From NCBI RefSeq assembly GCF_010729895.1, contig NZ_AP022612.1, positions 5,704,001 through 5,768,000 on the forward strand: DNA of 64,000 bases, written 5' to 3'. The notes beneath the pieces are model-generated. The model saw only the letters and a program-made list of their open reading frames with translations. It searched no databases and had not been told where the DNA came from. Positions 32,074 through 63,560 of the stretch are shown in pieces (the stretch's first letter is position 1; every line of letters starts with the position of its first letter). Origin of the DNA: Mycolicibacterium confluentis. Lineage in GTDB: Bacteria > Actinomycetota > Actinomycetes > Mycobacteriales > Mycobacteriaceae. Made by a program: the position numbers and the translations under genes.

Positions 32074-32135
32074 GCGACACTTAAACGATTGCGAGAACAC
32101 GCCGGGGACGGTCGCAGACGTTTAAGTCTCGGCGC
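32074..32135 (+). repeat. 62-bp hairpin repeat, copy 1
   Basis: Begins GCGACACTTAAACG and ends CGTTTAAGTCTCGGCGC. Arms ACTTAAACG/CGTTTAAGT pair, and an inner TTGCGA/TCGCA extends the stem with two mismatches. It ends 53 nt before the DUF559 gene. See copies 2 and 3 at 33126 and 63499. Confidence 0.85.
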
Positions 32136-32188
32136 CAGTTGCCCGTCGCTCGGCGGAGTTTGTCGGCCGGTGGTGGCAGTTTCAGCCC

Positions 32189-33085
32189 ATGGACGACGTT
32201 TTTCTGGGGAGTCGAGCGGTCCGGGCCGGACTTGTCACGCCATACCAACTCCGCACGGCCTACTCCTCGATGTTTCCGGACGTCTACGGCGAGGCGGGCA
32301 GTGTGCCTTCGCTGCGGGCACGGACTCGCGGAGCATGGTTGTGGTCACGGGAGCGCGGTGTTGTCGCGGGCGTCGCCGCAGCAGCCCTGCACGGCGCCGA
32401 CTGGGTGGATGTTGACGAGCCGATAGAACTGATCTGGCGGAACACCAATCCGCCAGTGGGCGTACGGACTCGCAACGAACGTATCGCTGACGACGAGATC
32501 GTTTGGCGGTCAGGGATTCTCACGACTTCCGATGCTCGCACCGCCTTCGATCTTGGGCGGCGGCGCGATCGTTTCGAAGCACTGGGACGGCTCGATAGTC
32601 TCGCGCGGGCCACGGCGTTCTCCACGGCCAAGGTGTCTGCGTTGATCGACCGCTATCCCGGAGCCCGCGGAGTGCGCCAGTTGCGGGAGTTGCTGACGCT
32701 GGTGGATCGGAAGGCGGCATCGCCGAGGGAGAGTTGGCTGCGGTTGAAGCTACTCGATGCGGGCTTCCCAGCGATTGCGACCCAGATAGCAGTGGGCGTC
32801 GATCGCATCCTGGTCGGGATCCTGGACATGGGTTGGGAGGAGTACAAGGTGGCGGCCGAGTACGACGGGGATCAGCATCGATATGACCGCCGGCAGTACC
32901 TGCGGGACCAGCGTCGACTGCCCAGGTTGCAGAAGGCCGGTTGGATCGTGATTCGGGTTGTCGCAGAAGACCGCATCGAAGACGTCATCGCTGGTGTCGA
33001 CGAGGCGCTCCGCAGCCGAGGATGGCGTCCCGGGGTCGAGGCTGCCAGCAACGCGCGGGGACGTCCGTCGGGCCTGGTGGCCTGA
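32189..33085 (+). CDS. DUF559 / AbiEi-antitoxin-like protein
   Basis: Protein of 298 aa of a family very common in mycobacteria. N-terminal ~1-90 resembles the winged-helix part of AbiEi-type antitoxin proteins (GVVAGVAAAALHGADWVD). The C-terminal ~175-280 is DUF559-like, related to Vsr/PD-(D/E)XK nucleases: SPRESWLRLKLLDAGF, ILDMGWEEYKVAAEYDGDQH and LQKAGWIVIRVVAED give the expected E, D and E-x-D/H positions. Function unproven. The gene is bracketed by two copies of a 62-bp hairpin repeat in direct orientation. No partner toxin gene is seen beside it. Confidence 0.75.
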   Translation: MDDVFLGSRAVRAGLVTPYQLRTAYSSMFPDVYGEAGSVPSLRARTRGAWLWSRERGVVAGVAAAALHGADWVDVDEPIELIWRNTNPPVGVRTRNERIADDEIVWRSGILTTSDARTAFDLGRRRDRFEALGRLDSLARATAFSTAKVSALIDRYPGARGVRQLRELLTLVDRKAASPRESWLRLKLLDAGFPAIATQIAVGVDRILVGILDMGWEEYKVAAEYDGDQHRYDRRQYLRDQRRLPRLQKAGWIVIRVVAEDRIEDVIAGVDEALRSRGWRPGVEAASNARGRPSGLVA

Positions 33086-33125
33086 CCCCGGGGTCGAAGG
33101 TGCGGGGGCTGGGCCAGACCTGAAC

Positions 33126-33187
33126 GCGACACTTAAACCATTGCGAAGACACACCGGGTCACGTCGCAAAGGTTTAAGTCTCGGCGC
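33126..33187 (+). repeat. 62-bp hairpin repeat, copy 2
   Basis: Begins GCGACACTTAAACC and ends GGTTTAAGTCTCGGCGC. Relative to copy 1, the closing base pair changed from G-C to C-G on both arms, which keeps pairing. Inner stem TTGCGA/TCGCAA with one mismatch. It starts 41 nt after the DUF559 stop, in the same orientation as copy 1. Confidence 0.85.
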
Positions 33188-33252
33188 GAGGTGCGAGGTG
33201 CGGGGTGCGAGGGCGAGAGGCGAGGAGCGGGGGGCGAGGTGCGAGGAGCGGT
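33186..33252. repeat. G-rich low-complexity heptamer array
   Basis: Degenerate tandem units of GCGAGGT/GCGAGGA type directly abut hairpin copy 2. The intergenic stretch 33086-33363 holds only these two elements; no gene is seen there. Confidence 0.6.
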
Positions 33253-33363
33253 GGGCGCGCTGCGAATCACCCGGGGAAGCGCCAGGTCAGGCCAGTGCCG
33301 GGGCCAGGATGAGCTCGGTGCGGGACTGAGGAGTGGCTGGCGAGGGCGAAATGGGGAGGCCGC

Positions 33364-34071
33364 CTAGACCCGGCGCGGTGCCGCCAAGCGCTCCCGCCGC
33401 AACTGCTCCACCTCGGGCAGCTCCAACGGCTCCAACGGTCCGACGACGGTCGACAGCAGATGGTCCGCCAACTCCGGATTGCGGGCCAGGCAGCAGCCGT
33501 GCAGGTACGTCGCGACCACCGACCCCTGCACCGCGCCGTCATACCCGTCGCCCAGGCGGTTGCCCGCACCCTTGGTCACGGCGGCAAGGGGACGAGCGGA
33601 CGACCCGAGGACGGTCCCGCCGCGGTGGTTCTCAAAACCCGTCAGCGGTTGGGTGAGCCCGTCGATCAATGGCGTGGATGCGACCTCGCCGATCGTCCGA
33701 GTCTCCTGCGGCGACGTCGTGACGTCCAGCAGGCCGACGCCCTCGACCCGTTCACCGGCCGACGTCTCATACCAGTGCCCGAGCACCTGGATGGCCGCAC
33801 AGATCGCGAGCACCGGCGCACCGCGGTCAGCGGCGCGCTGCAGGCCCGGGTACCGGATCAGGTGCTTGGTGGCCAACCGCTGCGCGTAATCCTCGGCACC
33901 GCCGAGCGTGTAGAGGTCCAGCGACTCGGGCACAGGGTCGGACAGCGTGATCTCAACGATCTCGGCGTCGATCCCGCGCAGACGCAACCGCTGCCGCAGC
34001 ACCACGGCGTTGCCCCCGTCGCCGTAGGTCCCCATCACGTCGGGCAGCACCAACCCGATCTGCACGGTCAT
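33364..34071 (-). CDS. gatD: Lipid II isoglutaminyl synthase, glutaminase subunit GatD
   Basis: CobQ/CobB-like glutamine amidotransferase, 235 aa, that supplies ammonia for amidation of the D-Glu in lipid II. Nucleophile Cys in VLAICAAIQVLG, His in VVATYLHGCCLARN, with YTLGGAEDY upstream. ATG 34071 overlaps the murT stop (TCAT), and the two subunits act as a heterodimer in the cytoplasm. Matches Rv3713, formerly called cobQ2. Confidence 0.93.
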   Translation of the reverse strand: MTVQIGLVLPDVMGTYGDGGNAVVLRQRLRLRGIDAEIVEITLSDPVPESLDLYTLGGAEDYAQRLATKHLIRYPGLQRAADRGAPVLAICAAIQVLGHWYETSAGERVEGVGLLDVTTSPQETRTIGEVASTPLIDGLTQPLTGFENHRGGTVLGSSARPLAAVTKGAGNRLGDGYDGAVQGSVVATYLHGCCLARNPELADHLLSTVVGPLEPLELPEVEQLRRERLAAPRRV

Positions 34072-35288
34072 GACAACCGCCGATTTAACTGCAGGAACGC
34101 CGTATAGTTGGCGACGACCTCGACGTGCCCGGCCGGGCACGACGCGATGGCCGCCATGGTGTCGTGCACCAGTGTGTGCCCGACGCCGGCGTACCCCAGT
34201 CGCACCGCGAGGTCGGTGCCGCGTTCACCGGCGGCGACGACGGGGCGCTCCACGAAGTGCTCGAAGTTGACGTCCCACAGCCAGGACAGATCCTCGCCGT
34301 CGGGCACCTGCCCGTTGACCGAGATCACCACGCCCGCGGCCGACGGGTCGACCATGGACAGCGCCTCCTGCCAGCCCGCGGGGTTCTTGGCCAGCAGCAC
34401 CCGCACGGTGTGGTCGCCCACCCGCACGGTCCGGTAGCGGCCGGCGACCTCGTCGACGCCCGAGACGGCGGCGACGGCGGCCACCGGATCGGCGCCCAGG
34501 GTGACGGCCGCGGCCACGGCCTGCGCGGCGTTGCCACGGTTGACCGCTCCAGGCAGCGCGAGGGTCATCGGCAGCGCCAGCCCGTCGGGGCCGTACAGCG
34601 TCTTCTCGTCGAACCACCACTGCGGGCTGGGCCGCTTGAAGTCGGTGCCCGTCGAGGACCAGTCGCTGCCCTCGCGGACGATGATCTCCCCGCTGCGCGG
34701 GCAGCTCACGGAGTCGTTGGACCAGCTTCCGCCGGCGGCCACCCAGACGACGTTGGGGCAGTCGTAGGCGGCCGAGGTCATCAGCACGTCGTCACAGTTG
34801 GCGACGACGACGGCGTCGGGATGACGCGCCAGGCCCGCGCGCAGGGTGCGTTCGATGTGGTTGATCTCACCCACGCGGTCAAGCTGGTCACGCGAGAGAT
34901 TGAGCAGCACGATGACCGCGGGATCGACCGCGTCGGAGACGTGCGGCACGTGCATCTCGTCGACTTCGAGGGCCGCCAGAGCGGCATCACGGCGCGCCGC
35001 CAGCGCGGCGACCAGGCCCGCGTCCATGTTGGCGCCCTCGGCGTTGGTGGCGACATCGCCCAGGGTGGCGAGCGCGGCGGCGGCCATCCGAGTGGTCGTC
35101 GACTTGCCATTTGTGCCGGTCACGACCACTGAGCGACGTCCCTGGCCCAGTTGGCGCAGGATCGAGCGGTCCAGCGTCATGGCGATCAGGCCGCCGATCA
35201 TCGCGCCCGCGCCGCGGCCGGTCACCCGCGAGGCCCAGCGCGCGGTTGACCCCGCGGCCAGGGCCAGACGTCCTCGGGCGGTGATCAC
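34068..35288 (-). CDS. murT: Lipid II isoglutaminyl synthase, MurT subunit
   Basis: Mur-ligase-like catalytic subunit, 406 aa. ATP site VVVTGTNGKSTTTRM, central domain with LNLSRDQLDRVGEI, and a Cys-bearing insertion (ANCDDVL, DCPNVVW, SCPRSGEI) that in MurT forms a zinc ribbon; the fourth Cys appears to be Ser here. C-terminal DUF1727 domain includes GRYRTVRV and AKNPAGWQEAL. GTG 35288 has a TAGATT box 7 nt upstream. Essential pathway: amidated lipid II for cross-linking. Confidence 0.93.
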   Translation of the reverse strand: MITARGRLALAAGSTARWASRVTGRGAGAMIGGLIAMTLDRSILRQLGQGRRSVVVTGTNGKSTTTRMAAAALATLGDVATNAEGANMDAGLVAALAARRDAALAALEVDEMHVPHVSDAVDPAVIVLLNLSRDQLDRVGEINHIERTLRAGLARHPDAVVVANCDDVLMTSAAYDCPNVVWVAAGGSWSNDSVSCPRSGEIIVREGSDWSSTGTDFKRPSPQWWFDEKTLYGPDGLALPMTLALPGAVNRGNAAQAVAAAVTLGADPVAAVAAVSGVDEVAGRYRTVRVGDHTVRVLLAKNPAGWQEALSMVDPSAAGVVISVNGQVPDGEDLSWLWDVNFEHFVERPVVAAGERGTDLAVRLGYAGVGHTLVHDTMAAIASCPAGHVEVVANYTAFLQLNRRLS

Positions 35289-35295
35289 GGGAGTC

Positions 35296-35301
35296 AATCT
35301 A
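35296..35301 (-). promoter_or_regulatory. -10 hexamer for leaderless murT-gatD
   Basis: TAGATT, 7-nt spacer, then GTG 35288. Same hexamer and spacing as at gluQ. No ribosome site. Confidence 0.45.
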
Positions 35302-35364
35302 CTGAGGGGAGACACGGTTGCGCACAACGCCTGGTTTGTCACCGGTGCGTGCCATTCTGAGGCT

Positions 35365-36354
35365 GTGAGCCATTCCTGGGGCCGACCGGCTACAGCACCC
35401 GGTGAGGGCTGGGCCGTGGTCGATGTCGAGACGTCAGGTTTCCGTCCTGGCCAAGCCCGCGTGATCAGCGTCGCGGCGCTCGCGCTGGACGCGGACGGGC
35501 AGGTCGAGCAGTCCGTGGCCAGCCTGCTGAACCCGGGGGTCGATCCCGGGCCCACCCATGTGCACGGGTTGACGGCCGAGATGCTGGAGGATCAGCCGAC
35601 CTTCGACGAGATCGCCAGCGATCTGATGAGCCTGCTGCAGGGCCGCACCCTGGTCGCCCACAACGTGGCGTTCGACCACGGGTTCCTGGCGGCCGAGGCC
35701 GAGCTGGCCGGCGCGGTGCTGCCGGTGGACACCGTGATGTGCACGGTGGAACTGGCGCGACGGCTGGAACTGGGCCTGGACAACCTGCGCCTGGAGACGC
35801 TCGCGCGGCATTGGGGCGTGCCACAGACCCGTGCGCATGACGCGTTCGACGACGCGCTGGTCCTGTCGCGCCTGCTGACCCCCGCACTCGAGCGGGCCCG
35901 CGAGCGTGACGTGTGGTTGCCGGTGCGGCCCGCGATGCGGCGACGGTGGCCCAACGGGCGGGTGACGCACGAGGAGATTCGCCCGTTGAAGGCGTTGGCG
36001 TCGCGGATGCCGTGCCCGTACCAGAACCCGGGCCGATATGTGCGCGGTCGGCCGCTGGTGCAGGGCATGCGGGTCGCACTGTCCGCGGAATGCACCCGCA
36101 CGCACGAGGAACTGGTGGAGCGGATCCTGCACGCGGGCTTGGCCTATTGCGACAACGTCGATCCCGAGACGTCGCTGGTGATCTGCAATGAGGTGCGGCC
36201 CGAACAGGGAAAGGGCTTCCTGGCCAAGGAGTTCGGGGTTCCGGTGGTCTCCGACGGCGAGTTCATGGCGCACGTGGGAGACGTCGTCTGCGGAACGGGC
36301 ATAGAGGAGTTCGTCGACGCCACCGCCGACGGCGGTCAGTTCGCGCTGTTCTGA
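35365..36354 (+). CDS. dnaQ: DnaQ-like 3'-5' exonuclease with BRCT domain
   Basis: Exonuclease of the DEDD family, 329 aa, the length of Rv3711c. Exo motifs: VVDVETSGF (D, E), VAHNVAFDHGFL (D), RAHDAFDDALVL (H, D). C-terminal BRCT-like domain ~240-325 (GMRVALSAECTRTHEEL, ICNEVRPEQGKGFLAKE). Mycobacterial replication proofreading relies mainly on the DnaE1 PHP domain, so this protein is more likely accessory. Start GTG 35365. Divergent from murT. Confidence 0.9.
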   Translation: MSHSWGRPATAPGEGWAVVDVETSGFRPGQARVISVAALALDADGQVEQSVASLLNPGVDPGPTHVHGLTAEMLEDQPTFDEIASDLMSLLQGRTLVAHNVAFDHGFLAAEAELAGAVLPVDTVMCTVELARRLELGLDNLRLETLARHWGVPQTRAHDAFDDALVLSRLLTPALERARERDVWLPVRPAMRRRWPNGRVTHEEIRPLKALASRMPCPYQNPGRYVRGRPLVQGMRVALSAECTRTHEELVERILHAGLAYCDNVDPETSLVICNEVRPEQGKGFLAKEFGVPVVSDGEFMAHVGDVVCGTGIEEFVDATADGGQFALF

Positions 36355-36433
36355 AAAAGGTTGCGGGGCAGAGCAATCGGGACGCGGCCCGATGTGCCGT
36401 CACAGGACAGCGCATCGGACCACGTCGCCGAAA

Positions 36434-36826
36434 CTAGCTGAGCGCCTTGGCCTTCAAGGAGTTGAACTCGTCCTGCGAGATGGTCCCCGCATCGAGCAGT
36501 TCCTTGGCGTCGGCGATCTCCTGCGCCGGCGAGCGTCCCGCCGCCGTGCGGATGTATTTCTCCGTCTCGAGCTGGGCCTCGGAGGCGGCTCGCTGCGCCC
36601 GCAGTGCCATGCCGCGCCCGCGGGTGATCAGGTAGACGAAGGCGGTCAGGTACGGGAACACGACCAGGAAGATCACCCACACGGCCTTGAGCCAACCCGA
36701 CGTCTTGTGGTCACGCCAGAACAGATCGACGATGATGTTGAACATGATGATCAGGTACGCGATGAACGCGAAGATCACCAGCGAGTACCACAGCAGTCCC
36801 CAGAAAGCGTCCCAGTCGAAATGCAC
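36434..36826 (-). CDS. Membrane protein with PLDc_N and SHOCT domains
   Basis: Small protein, 130 aa. Two membrane spans (SLVIFAFIAYLIIMFNIIV; AVWVIFLVVFPYLTAFVYLI) make up a PLDc_N-type module, then a linker and a C-terminal SHOCT segment (IADAKELLDAGTISQDEFNSLKAKAL). Start GTG 36826 with AAGGAG at 6 nt. Function unknown; SHOCT segments are oligomerisation tails on many actinobacterial membrane proteins. Confidence 0.82.
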   Translation of the reverse strand: MHFDWDAFWGLLWYSLVIFAFIAYLIIMFNIIVDLFWRDHKTSGWLKAVWVIFLVVFPYLTAFVYLITRGRGMALRAQRAASEAQLETEKYIRTAAGRSPAQEIADAKELLDAGTISQDEFNSLKAKALS

Positions 36827-36917
36827 TTGAGGCTCCTTATTTCGATGCGACGCTGATGCGTCCCATTCCAGCGCGACAGCCTACTTCGCAAATTGACTCT
36901 TTGGTTGACAAAGCACT

Positions 36918-36949
36918 GCGGCCGGCTCGCTGGTGCACGAGCCGGCCGC
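36918..36949 (-). terminator. Hairpin terminator after eutH
   Basis: Perfect 12-bp stem GCGGCCGGCTCG / CGAGCCGGCCGC with an 8-nt loop, 21 nt beyond the eutH stop. Confidence 0.7.
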
Positions 36950-36970
36950 AATGAACCTCAGATCTGAATG

Positions 36971-38209
36971 TCAGACCTTGTCTGCCTCGAGTTTCGCCTG
37001 TGCGGCCTCTTCCGCCTCGTCCTCTTCGACGAACCGCTTGAGGTAGGGCACGGCCAACCACAACGCGATCCCGACAGCGATCACGCCGCCGACCAGCTTT
37101 CCGACGATCATCGGAACGATCATGTTCGGCTGGAAGTTGGCGGTGAAAGCCAGGTAGTCGCCGATGGCGAACGCCGCACACACCGAGAAGGCGATGGTGA
37201 GCACGCGGTCGCGGGGCGGCATCAACGGAATGACGCGGTACAGCGCCAGGATGTTGGTCGCGCCGGCCAGGAAGCCGGTGATGCCCGCCTCGGAGACGCC
37301 CAGTCGGTCACCGACCGACTGCAGCGGCTTGGCCAGACCGGTGCGGATCAGGTACACCATCGGGAACGCGCCAGCCAGCATCACCGCGACGTAGCCACAC
37401 ACCTCGAGAGCGCGGAACTGGTCGTCGGCGTCGGCGATGAACGGCGCGAGCGGGAACGAGCCGAAGACCGTGGTGAAGACGCCGGTGAAGTACTCGACCA
37501 CGTTCGCCGTCATCGAGACGGTCGTGACGACCACGATGACCTTGGCGAAGACCAGGAACGCCTTGACCGTGAGGCCGGTGAAGAACCGCAGCGCCATCGC
37601 CATCGCCACCATGATGATGACCAGCGGGATGAGGTTGAGCAGCACCTCACCGAAGGACAGGTCGAACGGCTTGGTGCCCGGGCCCGCGGTGTTGATCTCC
37701 TCGCGGAGCAGCACGCCGGACTGCATCAGCATCAACGCCATGATCACAGAGGTGAAGGGGATGGCCAGCAGACCGCACATCGTGCCCAGCGCCAAGTACT
37801 TGTGGTGCTTCGGGTCCAGAAGCGCCAGGCCGACCGGGAGCGAGAATGCGATCACCGCACCAGCGGTGAGGCCCACGGTGAAGGCCAGGATCCATGCGCC
37901 ATGGCTGTCGGCGACCTCCAGCCCCAGCGCGTAGGAGCCCTGGTCGCTGGGCAGGAACGTGGCGACCGCGATCGCCGGATCCGAATGCAGCCACTTGTAG
38001 ACGGGACCGATGGTCGCGTTGATGGCGGGCACCAGCAGGGGGATGATGCCCATCATGCCCGCCACGGGGATGAAGATCTGTCCCAGGACGCCGATGCCGT
38101 CCCGGAACTCGCCTGCCAGTGGCGAGTCGGGGCGCAGGATGTAGGCGCCGGCGCCGACGACCATACATGCCATCATCGCCCAGATGATGAACTGTCCGAC
38201 AAGTTCCAA
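36971..38209 (-). CDS. eutH: EutH-family (ethanolamine) permease
   Basis: Polytopic permease, 412 aa, about 10-11 helices. Family features: IPVAGMMGIIPLLVPAIN, HGAWILAFTVGLTAG, GLLAIPFTSVIMALML and GITGFLAGATNILALY. EutH carries ethanolamine in enteric bacteria; here no eutBC or shell genes are near, so another small amine or alcohol is possible. Start is TTG 38209 with GAGGGTGA upstream. It follows the SDR gene by 47 nt, and both read from a promoter near 39.2 kb. Confidence 0.85.
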   Translation of the reverse strand: MELVGQFIIWAMMACMVVGAGAYILRPDSPLAGEFRDGIGVLGQIFIPVAGMMGIIPLLVPAINATIGPVYKWLHSDPAIAVATFLPSDQGSYALGLEVADSHGAWILAFTVGLTAGAVIAFSLPVGLALLDPKHHKYLALGTMCGLLAIPFTSVIMALMLMQSGVLLREEINTAGPGTKPFDLSFGEVLLNLIPLVIIMVAMAMALRFFTGLTVKAFLVFAKVIVVVTTVSMTANVVEYFTGVFTTVFGSFPLAPFIADADDQFRALEVCGYVAVMLAGAFPMVYLIRTGLAKPLQSVGDRLGVSEAGITGFLAGATNILALYRVIPLMPPRDRVLTIAFSVCAAFAIGDYLAFTANFQPNMIVPMIVGKLVGGVIAVGIALWLAVPYLKRFVEEDEAEEAAQAKLEADKV

Positions 38210-38256
38210 GGTGAATCACCCTCTCAATTCAGTGGTTGAAAATAACGGGACGCTGA

Positions 38257-39027
38257 TCAACGGCCAGCGAGGTGCCCGCCGTCGATGATCAGTTCGGCGC
38301 CCGTGATATAAGCCGCGTCGTCGGAGGCCAGGAAGGCGACCGACGGGGAGATCTCTTCGCCAAGTGCGAAGCGGCCCAGCGGGACCGTCTGCAGGATCGA
38401 CTCCGCTGAACCTTCGGGGAGCCCGGCGAGCTCCTCGCGCAGCATCGGGGTGTCGATGTAGCCGGGGTGAATGCTGTTGAAGCGGATACCTTCTCGGCCG
38501 TAGGTCAGGGCCAGCGACTTCGTCATGGTGGTCACCGCGCCCTTGGAGGCGATGTAGGCGAGGTAGCCGTCGGCGCCGATCAGACCGAAGATGCTCGAAG
38601 TGTTGATCACCGAGGCCACGGTGCTCTTGCGCAGCAGTGGCAGCGCGGCCTTGACGGCCAGGAAGATGCTCTTGGTGTTGATGTCGAGCGTGCGCTGCCA
38701 GGACTGCTCGGTGGCGTCTTCGGCGGTGAACAGGTCCAGGATCCCGGCGTTGTTGACCAGGATGTCGAGCCGGCCCTGATCGGTCTCGATCTCGGACACG
38801 ATCTCCTGCCAGTGCTCGAAGCTGGCGACGTCATGCTTGCGGAAGTGCACGTCAAGGCCTTCTTCGCGCAGGCTGGCCTCGAGCGCGGAACCCGACTTGG
38901 TGTCGATGTCGGTGAAGTAGACGATCGCCCCCTCCTGCGCCAGGCGGCGGGTGTGGCCGGCGCCCTGTCCGTTGCTGCCACCGGTGATCAGCGCGATTCG
39001 TCCGACCAGTCGACGAGGTGTCGTCAT
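38257..39027 (-). CDS. Short-chain dehydrogenase/reductase
   Basis: NAD(P)-dependent SDR, 256 aa. Cofactor loop ALITGGSNGQGAGH, LVNNAGI, catalytic Ser in INTSSIFG and YIASK (Tyr-Lys) in YLAYIASKGAV. ATG 39027 chosen, 9 nt from GAAGGG; an ATG two codons upstream is very close to that site. First gene of the leftward SDR-eutH unit, divergent from the mycofactocin-type SDR. Likely oxidises an alcohol made from or taken up with the EutH substrate. Confidence 0.88.
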   Translation of the reverse strand: MTTPRRLVGRIALITGGSNGQGAGHTRRLAQEGAIVYFTDIDTKSGSALEASLREEGLDVHFRKHDVASFEHWQEIVSEIETDQGRLDILVNNAGILDLFTAEDATEQSWQRTLDINTKSIFLAVKAALPLLRKSTVASVINTSSIFGLIGADGYLAYIASKGAVTTMTKSLALTYGREGIRFNSIHPGYIDTPMLREELAGLPEGSAESILQTVPLGRFALGEEISPSVAFLASDDAAYITGAELIIDGGHLAGR

Positions 39028-39168
39028 GTACATATGCCCTTCTGTCAGTGATGTGCCACTCGGCACAACGTGTCGCGATTCGCTGCCAACGTTGTTCCGC
39101 ATCATCGGGTTTGACCCGTTAGTCGGAGATCGTGCCAGCCGGTGCATGGTCCCGCGACTTGAATGTGG

Positions 39169-39224
39169 ACATTTGTTGAAAGTGTGATCGCGGTTACATT
39201 AGGGGTGGCCGCTCATGCTGTCAA
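39169..39224 (-). promoter_or_regulatory. Promoter plus operator half-site for SDR-eutH
   Basis: On the minus strand TTGACA (39224-39219), 17-nt spacer, TAATGT (39201-39196), then ACTTTCAACAAATGT (39183-39169) just past the expected start point. The latter matches the left half of the site before the luciferase-like gene (ACTTTCAACAGATGT) in 14 of 15 bases; the right half is poorly kept. Confidence 0.6.
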
Positions 39225-39294
39225 CTGTGGGCGTCGATTCGGGATGCTCCGTTAACACGTTGATGCACAGACAGATTGAGATCCCGCGTATCCA

Positions 39295-39350: not shown

Positions 39351-39376
39351 AATGTCACCAACGTGGGAGTGAATCG

Positions 39377-40237: not shown

Positions 40238-40243
40238 CCTGCT

Positions 40244-55139: not shown

Positions 55140-56828
55140 ACTGGGTCCGAACCAGATGCCGTGCCGGTACTGCGAGCGGTGCTGGCGCGTGAGCCGCAGC
55201 GGCAGCACCCCGGGCAGGTCCACATCGGTGGCCGGCAGCAGATATTCGCCGGTCGCCAGGTCGACCGGTTCCGGGCTGGTCTGCTTCTGGCCGGTCTCGA
55301 TGGACGACGAGGGGTCATCCCGGACTGGGCCCGCGTCGTGATTGGGCGGCGTCAGGTCGACGTCGGGATCGTCGGGATGTGACGGCGGAAGGTCCGGTGC
55401 ATCTGGTGCGTCATGCGGGGTGTGGTGCGGCACGTCGGGGGTGGGGATGTCGTCGGCGACGCGGGTTGCGCCCGGGATCTCATCGGCGAATCCGATCACG
55501 CCATCGGCGACGCGGGCGAGAGGACCCGCGGCCTTGAGACCGGGAAGGGGGAGAAGTCCCGCGAGTTCGGCGACGGCCTCCGTGCGTTCGGAGTTCGAGC
55601 GTTCGTCCCAATGCTGGATGGTGTCAAGGTGTTTGGCGACGTCGGGAATCAGGCCAAGACTGGATTCACTGAGTTCGCGGCTGTGTTCCTTCCACCCGGG
55701 AGGCGGGGCGAACGACTGCACGTCGATGTTCTCCGGCAGCGGGGCTCGGGGAACGGGGCGGCCGCCCTGTGCTGTGTGGGCGTCATTCATGCGGCCGAGG
55801 AGCGCGTCCTCCTCCTTCAGCTCGCGACGTGCGTCGAAGACGTCCTGGGCCAACTGGGTCAGGACGTCACGGTCGGGTCCGTTGCCGGGTCCCCTCACGT
55901 AGGCCTCGGCGGCAGCAGCATTCGCTTTCCTCTGAGCTTCGCCGAGCTTGCGCCACGCCTCCGCGACTTGGGTCGCTTGACGTTCAAGCGCAGCGCGGTT
56001 GCCCGCGACAACAGGAGCGAGGAGCGGATCTACCGGGCCCGTTTCTCCGGGTCCGGGGCCGTCACTGGTCAGCCGCTCCTGTAGCTGGTCGAGTGGAGTG
56101 GGAGGCTGCAAACCGTCGGGCCCCAGCAGGGTGGGCTGCTCCGCTGCGGTGTCTGCGGGCGTCAGCATGTCCTGCCAGGATCCGGGCCGAGTGGCCTCCG
56201 GGGGCCCGACGGTTGCTCCGTCGTACCCGTCGACGCTGTCGACCGCCCCGGCGCCGTACCCGAAGGACTTCAGGCTGGACATCGCGGTGCTCAGAGCCAG
56301 GGCATAGTCGGTCCGCAGCTCGACGACATCGTCGTAGGTCTCGCGGGTTTCGGCGATCGCGGCCTCTTTCCACTCCCTGGCCTCGTCCGCATCGTCAGCT
56401 TCGAGGGCCTCGCCGTACTTGGCGTCGGCGAGCCTGAGCTTGAAGTTCAACTGGGCGATCTCGCGGTGGGACGACTGCTGCGTCTCGGCGAGCTTGGCCG
56501 CGATGGAGGCGAGATCCACCGCGATGTTCCCCAACTGCTCCGACTGCAGCTTGAGGGACGTGACGACCTGCTGCACCTCGGCGGCGTCGTTGATCGGGTG
56601 ACCGTTCGGACGCCTGTTCCACGAGGCCTCGAAACGCTTCCGGGCCTCGACGAACTCGGTGTCGGTGTCCTGGGTGTGGCCCGCGGCCTTGTGGAAGGCG
56701 GCACCCAGATCGGAGATCGCCTGCGGTTGTCCGGCCTGGACAGAGGCGTCGACCTTCCACGGATCGCCGCCGGCTCCGGCGGTGAGCGTGGAAATGTCGA
56801 GATGCGTGAGGTCGGGGTACGACGTCAC
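55140..56828 (-). other. ESX-type N-terminal segment of the RHS protein
   Basis: About 560 residues: YPDLTHLDISTLTAGAGG, helical regions with FEASWNR and long Ala/Glu-rich helices (KLRLADAKYGEALEADDADE), then an acidic Pro-rich linker. No Sec or Tat signal, so export by a type VII (ESX) system through this domain is proposed, with the small upstream protein as partner. Confidence 0.55.
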
Positions 56829-57148
56829 CGGACGTCGCGGATCCACTCAGTGTGAGTGTGTTCCATGGCGTCGAAGGTGCTGGCGATCCCGAGGACCGAG
56901 CCCCCCAACGTCTCCAGGCAGTCGCGATGCGTGGCCGCGACATCCGTGTTGCAGGAATGCGCTGTGGTCACAGCGCTGTGGAATGCGCGTGCGCCGCCGA
57001 AGTCCCCGAAGATGCCAGAAGCCACGGTGGCGCGGTTCAGTGTTTCCCGCGCCAGTTCGGCGTGCTCGGCCGCCGTGTGCGAACAGGTCGCGCCCGCGCG
57101 CATGTGGTCGGTGTCGAACTCCACCTTGGGTGTCTGTGGATCAGTCAA
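56825..57148 (-). CDS. Small ESX-type (DUF2563-like) protein
   Basis: 107 aa, all helical, no signal peptide: DTDHMRAGATCSHTAAEHAE, GDFGGARAFHSAVTTAH, and a C-terminal WIRDVR. Size and pattern match mycobacterial DUF2563/ESX secretion-associated proteins. The start is TTG 57148 with GGAGGGG upstream. Its stop overlaps the RHS start, so it is the probable targeting partner or chaperone for the toxin. Confidence 0.7.
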   Translation of the reverse strand: MTDPQTPKVEFDTDHMRAGATCSHTAAEHAELARETLNRATVASGIFGDFGGARAFHSAVTTAHSCNTDVAATHRDCLETLGGSVLGIASTFDAMEHTHTEWIRDVR

Positions 57149-57252
57149 GGTCAGGCCCCCCTCCCAGTCAGCAAAGACTAGCGGGAACCTCGTCCGCCGT
57201 CACTTCAACTCCGGCGGGCAGTGAATGCACTCGTCAGCGGGCTGCAGGCGCC

Positions 57253-57894
57253 TCAGACCTGAGAATCCGGGAACGCGATCACCGACAGGAAGCGAATCGG
57301 CAGTTCGATCAGGTCGGAGGGCCCGTGCGCGCCCTCGCCGTCGAACTGCAGCGAGTCACCCGGATGCAGTCGGTACACCGAGCGGCTGTGGCTGTAATCC
57401 ATGACGCCCTCGAGCATGAAGATGAACTCGGTGCCGGGGTGCTGGAACAGGGGATAGGTCTGGCTCTTCTCCGACAGTGTCACGTGCAGGCACTCGAGGC
57501 GCTTGTGCTCCCCGCGCAGGGAACCCAGGAGTTCGTATTCGTGGCCCTGCTTGGTGCCGTTGCGCACGATCCGGGCGCCCGTGCCGGACTTGACGAATGC
57601 CGCGGGACGTTCGACGTCGGCACCACGAAACAGCGTGGTGACCGGCACGTCGAAACCCTTGGCCAGCAGCGCCAACGTCGACAGGCTGCAGGAGGTCTGC
57701 GCATTCTCGATCTTCGACAGCATGGCCTTGGAGATGCCGACCTTCGCGGCCATGTCGGCCACCGACATGCCCTGCTGTTGCCGCAACTGCCGCACATTGC
57801 GGCCGATCGCGGCCTCCAGTTCGAGTTCGCCGACCGGTTCCTGCGGGTCCCGATCGCGTGCCGTCCCGGACTGGTTGCGGATGAGATCGGACAC
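57253..57894 (-). CDS. XRE-family regulator with cupin domain
   Basis: 213 aa; HTH at ~28-85 (NVRQLRQQQGMSVADMAAKV, GISKAMLSKIENAQTSCS) and a C-terminal cupin at ~130-205 (YPLFQHPGTEFIFMLEGVMD, YRLHPGDSLQFDGEGAHG). Such regulators often control amine or amino-acid catabolism. GTG 57894 lies 12 nt after the FAD oxidase gene and is the last gene of the amt-to-oxidase operon, so it probably controls that operon. Confidence 0.88.
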   Translation of the reverse strand: MSDLIRNQSGTARDRDPQEPVGELELEAAIGRNVRQLRQQQGMSVADMAAKVGISKAMLSKIENAQTSCSLSTLALLAKGFDVPVTTLFRGADVERPAAFVKSGTGARIVRNGTKQGHEYELLGSLRGEHKRLECLHVTLSEKSQTYPLFQHPGTEFIFMLEGVMDYSHSRSVYRLHPGDSLQFDGEGAHGPSDLIELPIRFLSVIAFPDSQV

Positions 57895-57906
57895 GCGCCC
57901 CCTTGC

Positions 57907-59097
57907 TTAACGCATCTGTCCCGCACCGACGTATGGATACGGGCTTCTCAGCAGATCATCCTCGTCGAACCGTGACAACCGGAAATCCGTCTCGGGGATC
58001 CGCGCGTCGGCACTGTGCCCGTCGATCACCAGGTCGGCGACCAGCCGTCCCACCGCCGGTGCGATCTTGAAGCCGTGGCCGCTGAATCCGGCCGCGACGA
58101 TCAGGCCCTCGATGCCGGTTCGGGAGATCACCGGGTTCCAGTCCGGCGTGACGTCGTAGCAGCCGGCATAACTGCTGGTGATCGCGGCGTCGGTGAACCC
58201 GGGGAAGCGGGTGCCGATCTTGTCGACGGTCAGGTCAATGAAGGCCTCGCTGGCCCGGTTGGAGTAGTTGTCGGGGTCGGCGGTCTCGCAGTCGGCGAGG
58301 TCGCTGTTGCCGAACAGGATCTCCCCGCCGGTCTCGGGCCGGATGTACTGCAGCGACACCAGATCGGAGAACACCGGCACCGCGCCGATCGGGGCGCCCG
58401 GGTCCACCAGCACGATCTGCTCGCGCACGACGTCGATCGGCACGTCGATCCCGTACGGCAGCAGGAACGGACGGGTCCAGGCCCCGGTCGCGACGACGAC
58501 GGTGTTCGCGCTCACCTCGGTGCCGTCGGCCAGGCGCACCCCGGTCACGCGGTCACCGTCGATCAGCAGGTCGGTGACGGCAGCGCCCTGCCGGACCCGA
58601 ACGCCCGCCGCGCGGGCGCTGACCGCGAAGGCCTGCGCGGTCTGGTAGGCGTCGCCGTAGCCGCCGCGGGCCTCCCATCCGAATGCCGCGAACGCCGACA
58701 GGTCCGCCCACGGCCACATGCGGGCCACCTCGGTGAGGTCGATCTCCTCGGTCTCGACGCCGACGGCCCGCTGTGCGGCAAGGCTTTTGCGCATAGACTC
58801 GACGTCGGGCTCACCGACCCCGACGACGTATCCGGTCTGGCGGAAGCCGATGTCGTCGCCGAAGATCTCGTGCGCGTTCTCGAAGACCTCCAGGCCGACG
58901 GTGGCCATCGCGGCCAGGGAACTCACGCCGTAGTGACAGCGCACGATCCCGCTGGATTTACCGGTCATGCCGGAGCCCACGGTGTTGCGTTCGGAGACAA
59001 GAACATCGGTGACACCACGCTGGCTCAAAGCCCAGGCCGCCGCGGCACCCTCCAACCCTCCGCCGACGATGACGACGTCGGCAGTCTCGCTGGTCAT
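57907..59097 (-). CDS. FAD-dependent amine oxidoreductase (DAO/SoxB-like)
   Basis: 396 aa flavoenzyme. N-terminal dinucleotide fold DVVIVGGGLEGAAAAWALSQ, SGIVRCHYG, and a C-terminal FAD motif GLIVAAGFSGHGFKIAPAVG. Pattern is that of sarcosine oxidase beta/glycine oxidase-type enzymes, which oxidise N-methylated or secondary amines. Start ATG 59097 lies 4 nt after the glutamate-synthase-like gene. In the N-methylglutamate pathway an analogous oxidase frees the C1 unit; this single-chain version could act on the product of the synthase below. Confidence 0.88.
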   Translation of the reverse strand: MTSETADVVIVGGGLEGAAAAWALSQRGVTDVLVSERNTVGSGMTGKSSGIVRCHYGVSSLAAMATVGLEVFENAHEIFGDDIGFRQTGYVVGVGEPDVESMRKSLAAQRAVGVETEEIDLTEVARMWPWADLSAFAAFGWEARGGYGDAYQTAQAFAVSARAAGVRVRQGAAVTDLLIDGDRVTGVRLADGTEVSANTVVVATGAWTRPFLLPYGIDVPIDVVREQIVLVDPGAPIGAVPVFSDLVSLQYIRPETGGEILFGNSDLADCETADPDNYSNRASEAFIDLTVDKIGTRFPGFTDAAITSSYAGCYDVTPDWNPVISRTGIEGLIVAAGFSGHGFKIAPAVGRLVADLVIDGHSADARIPETDFRLSRFDEDDLLRSPYPYVGAGQMR

Positions 59098-59101
59098 CGG
59101 C

Positions 59102-60430
59102 TCACCGACCCGGAATCCAGTCGGTGCCCGCCAGGGGTACACGGGCCATGGCGGCGGCTTCGATGCTGACGGCCACCAGGTCCTCGGGTTCGAGGTGGCA
59201 CACGTGGGCCTTGCCGCACGCGCGGGCGATGGTCTGGGCCTCCATGGTCAGCACGCGCAGGTAGTTGGCCAGGCGCCGACCGCCCTCGATCGGGTCGAAG
59301 CGGGCCGCCAACTCCGGGTCCTGCGTGCTGATGCCCGCGGGATCCCGGCCGTCCTGGAAGTCGTCGTAGAAACCCGCTGCGCTGCCCAGCTTCTCGTACT
59401 CGGCGGCGTACCTGGGATGGTTGTCGCCGAGGGCGATCAGGGCGGCCGTGCCGATGGCCACGGCGTCGGCGCCCAAAGCGAGCGCCTTGGCGACATCCGC
59501 GCCGTTGCGGATGCCGCCAGAGACGATCAACTGCACCTTACGGTGCACCCCCAATTCCTGCAGGGCCTGCACGGCCTGCGGAATCGCGGCCAGTGTCGGG
59601 ATGCCCACATGCTCGATGAACACCTCCTGCGTGGCGGCCGTGCCGCCCTGCATGCCGTCGACGACCACGACGTCGGCGCCGGAGTGCACCGCGAGTTTCA
59701 CGTCGTAATACGTCCGGGTCGCGCCGACCTTGACGTAGATCGGCTTCTCCCAGTCGGTGATCTCACGCAGTTCGTTGATCTTGATGGTGAGGTCGTCGGG
59801 GCCCGTCCAGTCCGGGTGCCGGCACGCCGAACGCTGGTCGATGCCCGGAGGCAGAGTGCGCATCCCGGCCACGCGGTCGGAGATCTTCTGCCCCAACAAC
59901 ATGCCGCCGCCGCCCGGCTTGGCGCCCTGCCCGAGCACGACCTCGATGGCGTCAGCGCGCCGCAGGTCGTCGGGATTCATGCCGTAGCGTGACGGAAGAT
60001 ACTGGTAGACAAGGTGCTTGCTCTGGCCGCGCTCCTCGGGCGTCATTCCGCCGTCACCGGTGGTGGTCGAGGTGCCGACTTCGCTGGCGCCGCGGCCCAG
60101 GGCCTCCTTGGCCGGCCCGGACAGCGCGCCGAAGCTCATGCCCGCGATGGTCACCGGAATGGCCAGGTGCAGAGGGTGTTTGGCGTTGCGGTCGCCGAGC
60201 ACCACGTCGGTGTCGCAGCGTTCGCGATACCCTTCGAGGGGATAGCGGGACATCGACGCGCCCAGGAAAAGCAGGTCGTCGAAATGCGGCAGGGGTCTCT
60301 TGGCGCCCCATCCTCGGATGTCATAGATGCCGGTGTCGGCGGCGCGGTTGATGGCCGCGATGGTGGCGCGGTCGAAGGTGGCGGATTCGCGCAGGCCGAG
60401 GCGGGCGCGGTCATCGGTGCTGGGGGTCAT
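59102..60430 (-). CDS. Glutamate synthase-like FMN domain subunit (MgsC/GltB2-like)
   Basis: 442 aa; FMN-binding synthase domain of glutamate synthase as a separate protein. Motifs: IPVTIAGMSFGALSGPAKEA, GTSTTTGDGGMTPEE, GQGAKPGGGGMLLGQKI, VVVDGMQGGTAATQEVF, VSGGIRNGADVAKALALGAD. The three-Cys [3Fe-4S] loop of classic GltB is not evident (only IDQRSACRHPDW there). Together with the two genes upstream it makes a split, N-methylglutamate-synthase-like enzyme. Confidence 0.88.
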   Translation of the reverse strand: MTPSTDDRARLGLRESATFDRATIAAINRAADTGIYDIRGWGAKRPLPHFDDLLFLGASMSRYPLEGYRERCDTDVVLGDRNAKHPLHLAIPVTIAGMSFGALSGPAKEALGRGASEVGTSTTTGDGGMTPEERGQSKHLVYQYLPSRYGMNPDDLRRADAIEVVLGQGAKPGGGGMLLGQKISDRVAGMRTLPPGIDQRSACRHPDWTGPDDLTIKINELREITDWEKPIYVKVGATRTYYDVKLAVHSGADVVVVDGMQGGTAATQEVFIEHVGIPTLAAIPQAVQALQELGVHRKVQLIVSGGIRNGADVAKALALGADAVAIGTAALIALGDNHPRYAAEYEKLGSAAGFYDDFQDGRDPAGISTQDPELAARFDPIEGGRRLANYLRVLTMEAQTIARACGKAHVCHLEPEDLVAVSIEAAAMARVPLAGTDWIPGR

Positions 60431-60442
60431 CGGTGTGGCCTC

Positions 60443-61132
60443 CTAGTAGGACGCGGCGTTGTCGACGTGGAAGTGGTACAGCTGACGGGCCGAGCCGTAG
60501 CGGGTGTAGGCCGAGGTGTCGTCGTCGCCGAAGCCGGCGGCTTTGAGCAGTCGGGCGAGTTCCTCGTGGTGTTCGGCGCGCATCTCCTTGGCGACGCAGT
60601 CCGCGCCCAGCGAGGCGACCTCGCCGCGGACGTACAGGCGGGCCTCGTAGATCGAGTCACCGAGCGCCTCACCGGCGTCACCGCGGACCACCAGGGTGCC
60701 GGCCTGCGCCATGAACGCGCTCATGTGCCCGATGTTGCCGCCCACCACGATGTCGACGCCCTTCATCGAGATCCCGCACCGCGCAGCGGCATCGCCTTCG
60801 ATCACCAGCAGACCGCCGTGCGCCGTGGCGCCCGCGGACTGGGACGCGTTGCCCTTGACCCACACCGTGCCGCTCATCATGTTCTCGGCGACACCGGTGC
60901 CCGCGTTGCCGTCGATGGTGATGTCGGCGTGCTGGTTCATGCCGGCCGCGTAGTAGCCGACGTGCCCGTTGACGGTGACGGTGACGGGTGCGTTGAGGCC
61001 GACCGCGACGTTGTGGGCGCCGGCGGGGTTGTCGATGACGAACTCGCCGGACACACCGGGGGCGTGCAGGGCGGCGTTGACGTCCCGCAGTGGTGTGATG
61101 TGCAGGTCGAATTGCGTGCTCAGCGCGTCCAT
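60443..61132 (-). CDS. GXGXG-domain glutamate synthase-like subunit (MgsB/GltB3-like)
   Basis: 229 aa beta-helix domain with repeating Gly patterns: LNAPVTVTVNGHVGYYAAGM, ITIDGNAGTGVAENMMSGTV, DIVVGGNIGHMSAFMAQAGT and LVVRGDAGEALGDSIYEARL. This is the C-terminal structural domain of glutamate synthase encoded alone. ATG 61132 overlaps the amidotransferase stop by 13 nt; 12 nt to the next gene. Confidence 0.9.
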   Translation of the reverse strand: MDALSTQFDLHITPLRDVNAALHAPGVSGEFVIDNPAGAHNVAVGLNAPVTVTVNGHVGYYAAGMNQHADITIDGNAGTGVAENMMSGTVWVKGNASQSAGATAHGGLLVIEGDAAARCGISMKGVDIVVGGNIGHMSAFMAQAGTLVVRGDAGEALGDSIYEARLYVRGEVASLGADCVAKEMRAEHHEELARLLKAAGFGDDDTSAYTRYGSARQLYHFHVDNAASY

Positions 61133-62004
61133 GCGTAGACCACCTCCGGTTCGGGTTCCCAGATCGCGGCGCGCTCGACGCCGGGCAGGCCGGCCAGCGC
61201 GCGGTATTCGCTGGCCATCGCGACCCAGTCGTCGGTCTCGGCGATGACGGCGGGTTTGCAGGCGATGGCGTCGCGCACAACGGCGAACGAGTCACTGTTG
61301 GACACCAGAAGCGTGTAGAACCCGTCGAACGTCGCGCACAGTTCCTTGAGTGCGGTCTCGACGTCGCGCCCGTTGGCCAACTGCTGCGCGACGAACCGCG
61401 CACCAACCTCGGTGTCGTTCTCGCTGTCGAAAACCACACCAGCGCGGCGCAGTTCGCGCCGGATGGTGGCGTGGTTGGCGAATGATCCGTTGTGCACCAG
61501 GCACTGGTCGGGGCCGACCGCGTAGGGATGCGCGCCCGACGGCGTCACCGCGGATTCGGTGGCCATCCGGGTGTGGCCGACGCCCTGCCATCCGGTGGCC
61601 TCGGCCAGGCCCCACGCCGCGGTCAGGTCGCGGGGGTGTCCGACGCCCTTGAGCACCGCGACGTCGGCGCCGAATCCGGAGATCAGTGCGTCGGGGTACG
61701 CCGCGAGCACCGCGGACTGCAGCGCTTCGACCGGTGCGGTTCCGGTGACCAGGAGGGTCTCGCCGAGCGCTCGGACCTCGACGTCGCCGCCGAGAGCCGC
61801 AGCGATCTCGTCGGGCGCTGCACTCAGTTCGAGCACCGACACGCAGTTTCGGCCCGGCGGGCACCACGCGGCGTTGCCGTAGACCGCCACGCCCGCGGAA
61901 TCGCTGCCGCGGTCTGCCATCTCGCACAACATGCCCGTCAGCAGCGCCCCGAGCTGGGGGTGAAGGTCCGGGCTGCGCAGATGCAGCCCCACGATCCCAC
62001 ACAT
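61120..62004 (-). CDS. Class II glutamine amidotransferase subunit (MgsA/GltB1-like)
   Basis: 294 aa Ntn-type glutaminase. N-terminal nucleophile Cys2 (MCGIVGLHL), VGHTRMATESAVTPSGAHPY, LVHNGSFANHATIRREL and ENDTEVGARFVA are the canonical motifs. It would release ammonia (or a methylamine from a gamma-glutamyl amide) and pass it to the synthase. Starts 25 nt after the synthetase-like gene. Confidence 0.92.
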   Translation of the reverse strand: MCGIVGLHLRSPDLHPQLGALLTGMLCEMADRGSDSAGVAVYGNAAWCPPGRNCVSVLELSAAPDEIAAALGGDVEVRALGETLLVTGTAPVEALQSAVLAAYPDALISGFGADVAVLKGVGHPRDLTAAWGLAEATGWQGVGHTRMATESAVTPSGAHPYAVGPDQCLVHNGSFANHATIRRELRRAGVVFDSENDTEVGARFVAQQLANGRDVETALKELCATFDGFYTLLVSNSDSFAVVRDAIACKPAVIAETDDWVAMASEYRALAGLPGVERAAIWEPEPEVVYAWTR

Positions 62005-62029
62005 AGTCTTTATCTCCCTTGGGTTTTCT

Positions 62030-63349
62030 TCAGAAGGCGGTGAGGTACTGGTCGACTTCCCAGGCGCTGACCGCGCTGTGGTAGGCGAAGAACTCGTCGC
62101 GTTTGAGGTTGGCGAAGTACTCGGAGACGCCCGGTCCGACGGCGTCGAGCACGCCGGTCACCACCGAGTCGGTCTCCAGAGCGTCGACCGCGTGCAACAG
62201 CGTCGGCGGCAGCGCCGTGCGACCCTGGACCGCTCCGACAGTGCCCGGATCGGCGCTGCGCTTGATGCCGTCGAGTCCGGCGCCCAGTGCGGCGGCGATC
62301 GCGAGATACGGGTTGGCCGCGCCGTCGGCGCCGCGCAGTTCGATGCGCTGGTTGTCCGGGATCCGGATGTAGTGCGTGCGATCGTTGCCGCCGTAAGAGG
62401 GTTGGCGCGGCGCCCACGAGGCGCCTGATGCCGTGCTGAGAGCGCCAGTGCGCTTGTAGGAGTTGACCGTTGGGCCGATCACAGCCTGCAGAGCGCAGGC
62501 GTGGTCGAGGATGCCGCCGACGAATGCGTAAGCGGTGTCGGACAGTCCGAGGCCCTTGGTGTCATCCGAGTCGGTGGGGAAGACGGGTTGTCCCGCGCTG
62601 GTCAGCGACATGTGGAAGTGCAGGCCGCTGCCCGTGCGGTCACCGAACGGTTTGGGCATGAACGTCGCGACCATGCCGCGTTCGGCAGCGATCATCGACA
62701 GCAGGTAGCGCAGCGTGACGACGCGGTCCGCGGTGACCAGCGCCTCGGCGTACTCGAAGTTCTGCTCGAACTGGCCGTTGCCGTCCTCGTGGTCGTTGGC
62801 GTAGTTGGACCAGCCCAGGGTGTTCATGGCGGCCGAGATGGTGGTCAGGTGCTCGTACATCCGGGTGACGCCGCGTGCGTCATAACAGGGTTGGGCCGCG
62901 GTGTCGTCGGCGTCGGCCGTGCGCAGGCTGCCGTCGGGGTTGCGCTTGAGCAGGAAGTATTCGACCTCGGCGCCCACCCAGGGTTCGAAGCCGGCGTCGG
63001 CCGCGCGTTGGACGAGGGACTTGAGGATGACACGGGGCGCGAAGCGCCACGGCTGGCCTTCGACGTGCGGGTCGCAGTGCACGATCGCCAGGCCCTCTTT
63101 GATGAAGGGGACAGGCGTGAATGAACTCGGATCCGGGATCGCCATCAGGTCGGGATCCTTGGGCTCTTGACCCATGGCGCCGACGGCGTAGCCCGCGAAG
63201 CCCACACCCTCGGTTGCCAACTGCTCGACCGCCTCGACGGGAACCAGCTTGGCGCAGGGCTTTCCGCGCAGATCGACAAACAACGCGAGCAGGAACCGGG
63301 TGCCGGCCTGCTCGGCGAGAGCGGCGAGTTCACTCTTGGTGGCCATCAT
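62030..63349 (-). CDS. Type III glutamine synthetase-like ligase (GlnT/GmaS family)
   Basis: 439 aa ligase of the glutamine synthetase fold. Metal/ATP motifs: GAEVEYFLLKRN, NYANDHEDGNGQFEQNF, MPKPFGDRTGSGLHFHMSL, and substrate loop RTHYIRIPDNQRIELRGADG. The family joins true GlnT enzymes and gamma-glutamylmethylamide synthetases (GmaS); sequence alone does not decide. The adjacent split synthase genes favour a GmaS-like or other gamma-glutamylamide role. GAGGAG directly precedes the tandem ATG-ATG start. It lies downstream of amt in the same direction. Confidence 0.9.
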   Translation of the reverse strand: MMATKSELAALAEQAGTRFLLALFVDLRGKPCAKLVPVEAVEQLATEGVGFAGYAVGAMGQEPKDPDLMAIPDPSSFTPVPFIKEGLAIVHCDPHVEGQPWRFAPRVILKSLVQRAADAGFEPWVGAEVEYFLLKRNPDGSLRTADADDTAAQPCYDARGVTRMYEHLTTISAAMNTLGWSNYANDHEDGNGQFEQNFEYAEALVTADRVVTLRYLLSMIAAERGMVATFMPKPFGDRTGSGLHFHMSLTSAGQPVFPTDSDDTKGLGLSDTAYAFVGGILDHACALQAVIGPTVNSYKRTGALSTASGASWAPRQPSYGGNDRTHYIRIPDNQRIELRGADGAANPYLAIAAALGAGLDGIKRSADPGTVGAVQGRTALPPTLLHAVDALETDSVVTGVLDAVGPGVSEYFANLKRDEFFAYHSAVSAWEVDQYLTAF

Positions 63350-63498
63350 CTCCTCGGACCTTTCGAAGTCTCGTGACAGGAATCAACGTATCACTGGATG
63401 AAACAGTGTGCAGTGCGAGCGAAGGGGTGGATGTCTCCGGGTTGGGGTGTCATATGCCCGGCGCCGAGCCACTTTGAGCCAATGCGCTCGTTGCCTGC

Positions 63499-63560
63499 GC
63501 GACACTTAAACCTCTGCGAGGACACGCCGGGCGGGGCCGCAGAGGTTTAAGCCTCGGCGC
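63499..63560 (+). repeat. 62-bp hairpin repeat, copy 3
   Basis: Begins GCGACACTTAAACC and ends GGTTTAAGCCTCGGCGC. Its 14-bp arms CTTAAACCTCTGCG / CGCAGAGGTTTAAG pair perfectly. Same orientation as copies 1 and 2, ~30 kb away. It lies in the 300-nt gap between amt and the synthetase-like gene, which holds no gene that I can see. Confidence 0.85.

Follow-up and report, generated by a model that had tools for sequence, protein, structure and literature searches.

Dispersed palindromes and a family of putative Vsr-type nucleases in mycobacteria: a candidate REP/RAYT-like system

Why would a mycobacterial genome hold dispersed copies of a 62-bp palindromic element, two of which enclose a single gene? 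The question is raised by a 64,000-nucleotide stretch of Mycolicibacterium confluentis DNA (the window; positions 5704001-5768000 of the 5.88-Mb single-contig genome), for which the original prediction described three same-strand 62-bp copies with common ends. All three are borne out: each is exactly 62 bp long, lies on the + strand and carries GCGACACTTAAAC at the 5' end and CTCGGCGC at the 3' end. A 13-mer of the element has five matches in the window with at most two mismatches, against 0.64 expected (none of 100 shuffles reached five), of which three are at the copy starts, while two copies also match in their opposite arm. Our preferred reading, to which we assign a probability of about 0.6, is that the element serves as the site of recognition and mobility for the product of the enclosed gene, element and protein together forming a system akin to repetitive extragenic palindromes (REP) and their REP-associated tyrosine transposases (RAYT). 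The original prediction recognised a real element and overlooked both this partner gene and the existence of multiple gene-specific palindrome groups, among which we call the window element group 1.

Only one gene lies between copies 1 and 2 in the window. Its product matches a PADLOC AbiEi model at 7.2e-8, and the PADLOC AbiEi models match all six group-1 proteins (best, 7.3e-11). Across 59 family members, Pfam matches at E ≤0.1 are to REase_MTES_1575 in 55, DUF559 in 43 and AbiEi_1 in 24, and they include no transposase family and no Y1/HUH tyrosine transposase. Residues D136, E181 and D213 (window protein numbering) are invariant in the 59 members, and Y225-D226-G227 and H230 are nearly so. 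The C-terminal part of the family profile matches 3hrl, an endonuclease-like protein, at 1.4e-7 and 3r3p, a mobile intron protein that we take to be a homing endonuclease, at 1.4e-3; the match to Vsr is weak (0.1-0.18). The profile matches and the acidic residues together point to a putative PD-(D/E)XK nuclease of the Vsr/DUF559 type at the C-terminal end. All 37 sampled genomes of the same genus encode the family, with 2-17 members each (E ≤1e-10), and 13 members were found in M. confluentis itself at E ≤1e-6. PHROGs and NCBIfam searches gave no useful match for the family, and none of 70 stretches of viral contigs that fit a pattern encodes a relative.

The element could alternatively be an ordinary miniature inverted-repeat transposable element (MITE). 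In this case it would derive from an insertion sequence by deletion, an unrelated transposase (DDE or other) would move it, and the nuclease gene would travel along as a passenger. Its small size, dispersal and inverted ends, with a gene between two copies, fit this picture. However, there is no other gene between the window copies and no transposase family among the Pfam matches of the 59 members, a passenger is not expected to co-diverge with the ends, and no obvious target duplication was seen by eye around 14 copies in the M. confluentis genome, so that we consider this origin extremely improbable.

The association of gene and palindrome recurs outside the window. A family protein adjoins the element in the window and at eight other element-bearing loci, and a second copy lies 0.93-1.05 kb from the first in the window and at seven of these eight; most of the remaining element loci, which have no family gene, hold solitary copies. 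In group-1 cassettes, one copy is located directly before the start codon and the second behind the gene, sometimes overlapping its 3' end. Many family members are bracketed by palindromes whose sequence differs from gene to gene. We found 84 different proteins and, after dropping four with short flanks, tested 80: the two flanks share a repeat (score ≥20) in 46 of these (32/53 within the genus and 14/27 in other genera), compared with 2/111 control genes from those loci and 0/1600 shuffles. An earlier version of the test gave 25/40 members and 1/56 controls. Eight of the 80, which also include the window gene itself, had been taken because they bear the element (L038, L041, L046, L048, L049 and L100-L102; three of the eight pass); with the eight removed, 43 of 72 pass. 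Each of the two passing control genes (L163, 2457-3095, - strand, score 45.8; L314, 2084-2599, - strand, score 31.8) adjoins a family gene. The count of 46 is probably low, because at least four failing members (L038, L100, L101 and L102) carry both copies according to the covariance model. A hairpin of score ≥9 is present in 37 of the 46 flank repeats, compared with 2.6% of shuffled ones, and the flanking copies are in direct orientation in 27 cases and inverted in 19. Some flank repeats outside the genus are of other kinds; at L313 and L315, for example, the flanks hold tandem direct repeats, not one palindrome.

Furthermore, palindrome and protein co-diverge. Among pairs of the 46 members, matching palindromes were found in 0/707 pairs below 45% protein identity, 1/93 at 45-50%, 3/111 at 50-55%, 8/71 at 55-60%, 18/46 at 60-70% and 7/7 above 70%. 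Some of the matching pairs represent one locus across species, and pairs from different loci match too (L041/L140, L048/L140). Tip motifs follow the family as well: GGCGTGTCG occurs exactly in the flanks of 10/53 genus members vs 1/42 control genes, AGTGCGAGT with at most one mismatch in 23/53 vs 2/42, and at least one of the two in 32/53 genus members. The window gene is outside the exact GGCGTGTCG matches because copies 1 and 2 each differ there by one base; the motif is also found beside the distant paralogues L179 and L181 and beside 3/27 members from other genera (L321, L324 and L326).

Within the element, the data support selection on the arms for pairing, which is kept via compensatory change. 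As had been claimed, the closing bases change together (ACG/CGT versus ACC/GGT), reading AAACG/CGTTT in copy 1 and AAACC/GGTTT in the other two, and the perfect 14-bp stem of copy 3, CTTAAACCTCTGCG/CGCAGAGGTTTAAG, is confirmed. In the 14 copies of the M. confluentis genome only, 89.1% of the cells pair, compared with 88.1% in shuffled alignments, and five cells changed on both sides; a covariation claim from this set was dropped as too weak, and the analysis was redone on 67 copies from many mycobacteria. For this alignment, one strand per site was taken from the covariance-model table, opposite-strand duplicates and weaker sites were dropped, and the rows were realigned by MAFFT. In these rows, thus chosen with a model of the same structure, 115 cells changed on both sides vs 51.5 (standard deviation 5.9) in shuffles that leave the relatedness between copies in place, and the covariation score was 0.249 vs 0.106 (standard deviation 0.009), with slid structures reaching at most 0.079. 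None of 500 shuffles was as high by either measure, 13/19 pairs show at least one both-side change, and 85.2% of the cells pair, so that pairing is preserved, with strong compensation, in copies other than the original three.

The 67 aligned copies begin with CGCGACAC or similar, and the segments that hardly vary are a 5'-terminal CGACAC, the tip GACACGCCG and a 3'-terminal TCTCG or TTTCG. Next to the CGA/TCG base, on its inner side, C faces C or T in most copies. Typical stem states are ACTTAAAC/GTTTAAGT, ACATAAAC/GTTTATGT, ACGTAAAC/GTTTACGT and ACTGAAAC/GTTTCAGT. Because the tip is one-sided, the palindromic site has polarity. The original prediction took covariation as selection for a hairpin, and the part that holds is the selection for paired arms; a symmetric site for a protein dimer in duplex DNA would covary likewise, which leaves a hairpin in vivo unproven. 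The suggested processed RNA found no support here, no Rfam family reaching its gathering score over the copies (in the window, Rfam matches comprise only signal recognition particle (SRP) RNA and tRNA). The suggested REP-like character gains support from the many dispersed intergenic copies with kept pairing.

The copies in the window are part of a larger set, with 14 distinct group-1 places in the M. confluentis genome at E <1e-8 in a consensus search; a covariance model built from these recovers all 14 and a weaker 15th. At E ≤1e-3, the group-1 element is present in 20 of 61 genomes (M. confluentis included), which correspond to 20/37 of the same genus and 0/24 of other genera of the order. 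Named records contain 14 stretches that match the strict element pattern; all are from Mycobacterium, including M. kyorinense, M. celatum, M. triplex, M. sherrisii, M. fragae and M. colombiense. The position of the copies relative to gene ends, a check recommended at the outset, was examined with simple gene calls. No copy among the 15 of M. confluentis is wholly inside a called gene, and they lie in approximately 6 convergent, 6 tandem and 2 divergent gaps and one ambiguous gap. At one locus of another genome (L103, G001 contig 169), two group-1 palindromes (2426-2493, + strand; 2506-2573, - strand) lie 80 bp apart in opposite orientation with no gene between, resembling a REP doublet.

Dispersal searches in the M. 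confluentis genome covered group 1 and two of ten further palindromes. The GCGAGCAGAC group has 19 places at E ≤0.05, including two partial ones; a pair of the 19 flanks the family gene at 3842200-3842880. The GCGAGGCTGT group has 9 places, three of which flank the family gene at 2306422-2307264. Apart from the window gene, no family gene of this genome (12 in all) has one of the 14 group-1 places next to it. Group-1 cassettes are found between what are presumably recR and a gatD-like gene (window, L046, L100, L101 and L183) and at several other loci, next to unrelated genes (L041/L102; L038/L048/L049; L147); L144, whose gene and palindrome are both related to these, represents yet another locus. 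The tree clade with the group-1 genes comprises ten rows with support of 93/91 and is not starred; L100-L102 are outside the tree. Copy 3 is absent from all 17 relatives in which both flanks could be anchored, among 20 examined. For the copy at 1364694, the stretch fetched includes the genes on both sides in 7/29 relatives: four of these carry a GCGAGCAGAC-type palindrome there, two another sequence, and one has no gap.

That the same convergent gap holds different palindromes in different species would also suit a host function at gene ends, as terminators or as hairpins that stabilise mRNA, with proximity to family genes as a by-product. The paired arms, the predicted stability of the folds (-22 to -39 kcal/mol) and the intergenic location, about six of the 15 M. 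confluentis copies being between convergent genes, are compatible with such a role. A general terminator, however, need not track the sequence of one protein family and does not require an invariant one-sided tip, and the copy before the gene would be unexplained. We consider this function improbable.

The strongest rival to a mobility site is an operator. An AbiEi-like autorepressor, a stray type IV antitoxin, would bind the inverted repeats before its own gene and nothing would be mobilised, the downstream and solitary copies representing a small regulon or relics of old gene copies; we rank this explanation as unlikely. One report describes AbiEi and Rv2827c as binding pairs of inverted repeats, each 23 bp long and separated by 3 or 13 bp, at their own promoters (PMC7319586). 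Together with the AbiEi-like front, this makes binding of the palindrome by the family protein likely and at the same time feeds the autoregulation alternative: these sites are close in size to the element (arms of ~20 bp, middle of ~17), one copy of each group-1 cassette stands right before the start codon, and co-divergence with the protein would be equally expected. By contrast, an operator does not readily account for the second copy, which follows the gene and in some cases extends into its 3' end, for the solitary copies in convergent, promoter-less gaps or for the conservation of nuclease residues. Moreover, 20 neighbours were examined for 10 of the 13 M. confluentis members, and no AbiEii nucleotidyltransferase was identified among them; four of these neighbours have no match at all and one, an ABC transporter, weakly matches AAA_21, whose description mentions AbiEii. 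The copies behind the gene, the solitary copies in convergent gaps, the acidic residues and the absence of an AbiEii neighbour favour a selfish element.

Under the selfish-element reading, we infer that the family protein binds, cuts and copies or mobilises its palindrome. The AbiEi-like part would bind both arms, the stem sequence being group-specific, with the tip GACACGCCG and the base CGA...TCG providing polarity, and the Vsr-like part would nick or cut DNA at the bound or extruded palindrome. Break repair or replication could then copy the palindrome to new intergenic sites and, at times, the whole palindrome-gene-palindrome cassette likewise. A bolder proposal, to which we give slightly less than even odds, is that this is a new bacterial short-palindrome mobility system, alongside HUH/RAYT-REP and transposase-dependent MITEs, in which Vsr-fold nucleases with AbiEi-like fronts each mobilise or copy their own palindrome, with many specificities in Mycobacterium and representatives in other genera of the order. 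Equally tentatively, an antitoxin-like repressor might have become, or arisen from, a selfish nuclease. No published description of such a system was found in the open-licence literature that was searched. Palindromes with a partner protein are a known kind, and the present system has a fair chance of being a class of its own. If the preferred reading is correct, a multi-copy mycobacterial gene family and the palindromes dispersed in those genomes belong together as the two components of a single system, an independent, convergent counterpart of REP/RAYT function, and the protein/palindrome pairs provide a natural set of matched specificities. It would also suggest that some actinobacterial AbiEi-like matches are parts of such nucleases, not antitoxins.

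Several results weigh against this reading. The Pfam matches of the window protein to REase_MTES_1575 (4e-6) and DUF559 (9e-4) are both under the curated cut-offs, and the structure model of the protein (predicted local distance difference test score, pLDDT, of 51) is too poor for use. Of the members tested, 34/80 fail the flank test, L148 has no common flank repeat despite its place in the group-1 clade, and L046 has a single palindrome copy. Copy numbers are low, at 9-19 per group. Direct movement was not seen at the copy-3, 1364694 or recR-gatD sites, neither as a base-exact empty site nor as a target duplication; around copy 3, the region in relatives differs by 176-244 bp, not by 62, and the absence of obvious duplications around the 14 copies, mentioned above, applies here as well. 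In addition, the genomes G031 and G036 contain many group-1 copies, none of which is beside the family genes listed for them, in gene lists that are incomplete. The pattern in these two genomes looks as if the partner gene had been lost.

Comparison with known systems places the closest parallel in REP/RAYT. Two studies describe palindrome-protein co-divergence, gene-flanking copies and several groups, each with its own partner (PMC2817692, PMC3733652), and much of the arrangement that they and a third study (PMC8266576) report for REPs with RAYT genes recurs here. The mycobacterial elements share with these REPtrons the short, dispersed intergenic palindromes, the partner gene between two copies, the several groups per genome with their own partners, and the co-divergence. 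Unlike RAYT/TnpAREP, the partner has no Y1/HUH match and instead combines an AbiEi-like front with a Vsr/DUF559-type end; the palindrome is ~62 bp, compared with 20-40 for REP, with no GTAG or GTGG head before it; flanking copies are direct as well as inverted; and the three groups hold 9-19 copies, whereas RAYT-linked REPs often number tens or hundreds. Given the unrelated enzyme and the different head motif, we regard the system as working in a REPtron-like manner and not as a member of REP/RAYT.

The AbiEi/Rv2827c operators are similar in going with an AbiEi-like protein region and in the geometry of the inverted-repeat pair that precedes the gene. The present family differs from these type IV toxin-antitoxin proteins in the copies behind the gene and dispersed elsewhere and in the fused nuclease domain, and from AbiE loci in lacking an AbiEii partner among the 20 neighbours, the window neighbours being recR and gatD. 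The Vsr/DUF559 nucleases and the Vsr-fold homing endonucleases (3hrl, 3r3p) resemble the C-terminal end by profile; unlike the present family, they are chains of ~100-155 aa without an AbiEi-like front and are not known to have cognate palindrome families. Mycobacterial stem-loop repeats are also represented by the Myt-1, Myt-8 and Myt-9 families of M. tuberculosis, which are 67-92 bp long and of unassigned nature in the available portion of their report (PMC2267715). The comparison with these is by description, not by sequence; that portion mentions no gene partner, unlike the case of the present palindromes.

The recR-gatD slot that holds the window cassette (Table 1) has variable content. 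We fetched 30 recR loci from the 58 genomes with a match and found a family gene behind recR in 14, in one of which it is reversed (L201) and in another represented by fragments only (L191). The fragments at L191 (genome G020) have CGAAACGGTATTCC-type palindromes on both sides. No family gene was found in the other 16, among which the contig of L193 ends 132 bases on, L209 has a lone palindrome and L199 has gatD directly behind recR. The flanking repeats or palindromes of the slot have at least six different sequences, and 7/14 slot genes share a flank repeat at score ≥20. A single clade of the eighteen slot members was rejected (p-AU 3.6e-8), for a list that was set by location, was compiled after the tree had been seen and omits slot genes without full flanks or removed by length (e.g., G033, G023, L188, L195 and the reversed L201). 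As the slot members do not form one clade, either genes entered the slot repeatedly or its occupants were exchanged.

Table 1. Positions in the window of the palindrome copies, the partner gene and other features
Feature	Position	Strand	Remarks
Palindrome copy 1 (group 1)	32074..32135	+	53 bp upstream of partner-gene ATG
Partner gene, 298 aa	32189..33085	+	AbiEi-like front, putative Vsr/DUF559-type (PD-(D/E)XK) nuclease end
Palindrome copy 2 (group 1)	33126..33187	+	Downstream of partner gene, orientation as copy 1
Palindrome copy 3 (group 1)	63499..63560	+	Solitary, between two genes called on the - strand
recR (presumed name)	31342..31953	+	Left neighbour of cassette; conserved in 58/60 genomes searched
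gatD-like gene (presumed name)	33364..34140	-	Cobyric-acid-synthase-like; right neighbour of slot
Bacterial small SRP RNA	23399-23493	+	Rfam match
tRNA gene	23230-23315	-	Rfam match

Two further features adjoin the cassette of the window. A near-exact tandem duplication of ~39 bp (CATGGCCTAGGTTTCCCG...CCCATTTGTGCACG; ~31943-32012) spans the recR stop codon just before copy 1, and a G-rich low-complexity stretch with GCGAGGTGCGAGG-like units (33188-33260) follows immediately 3' of copy 2.

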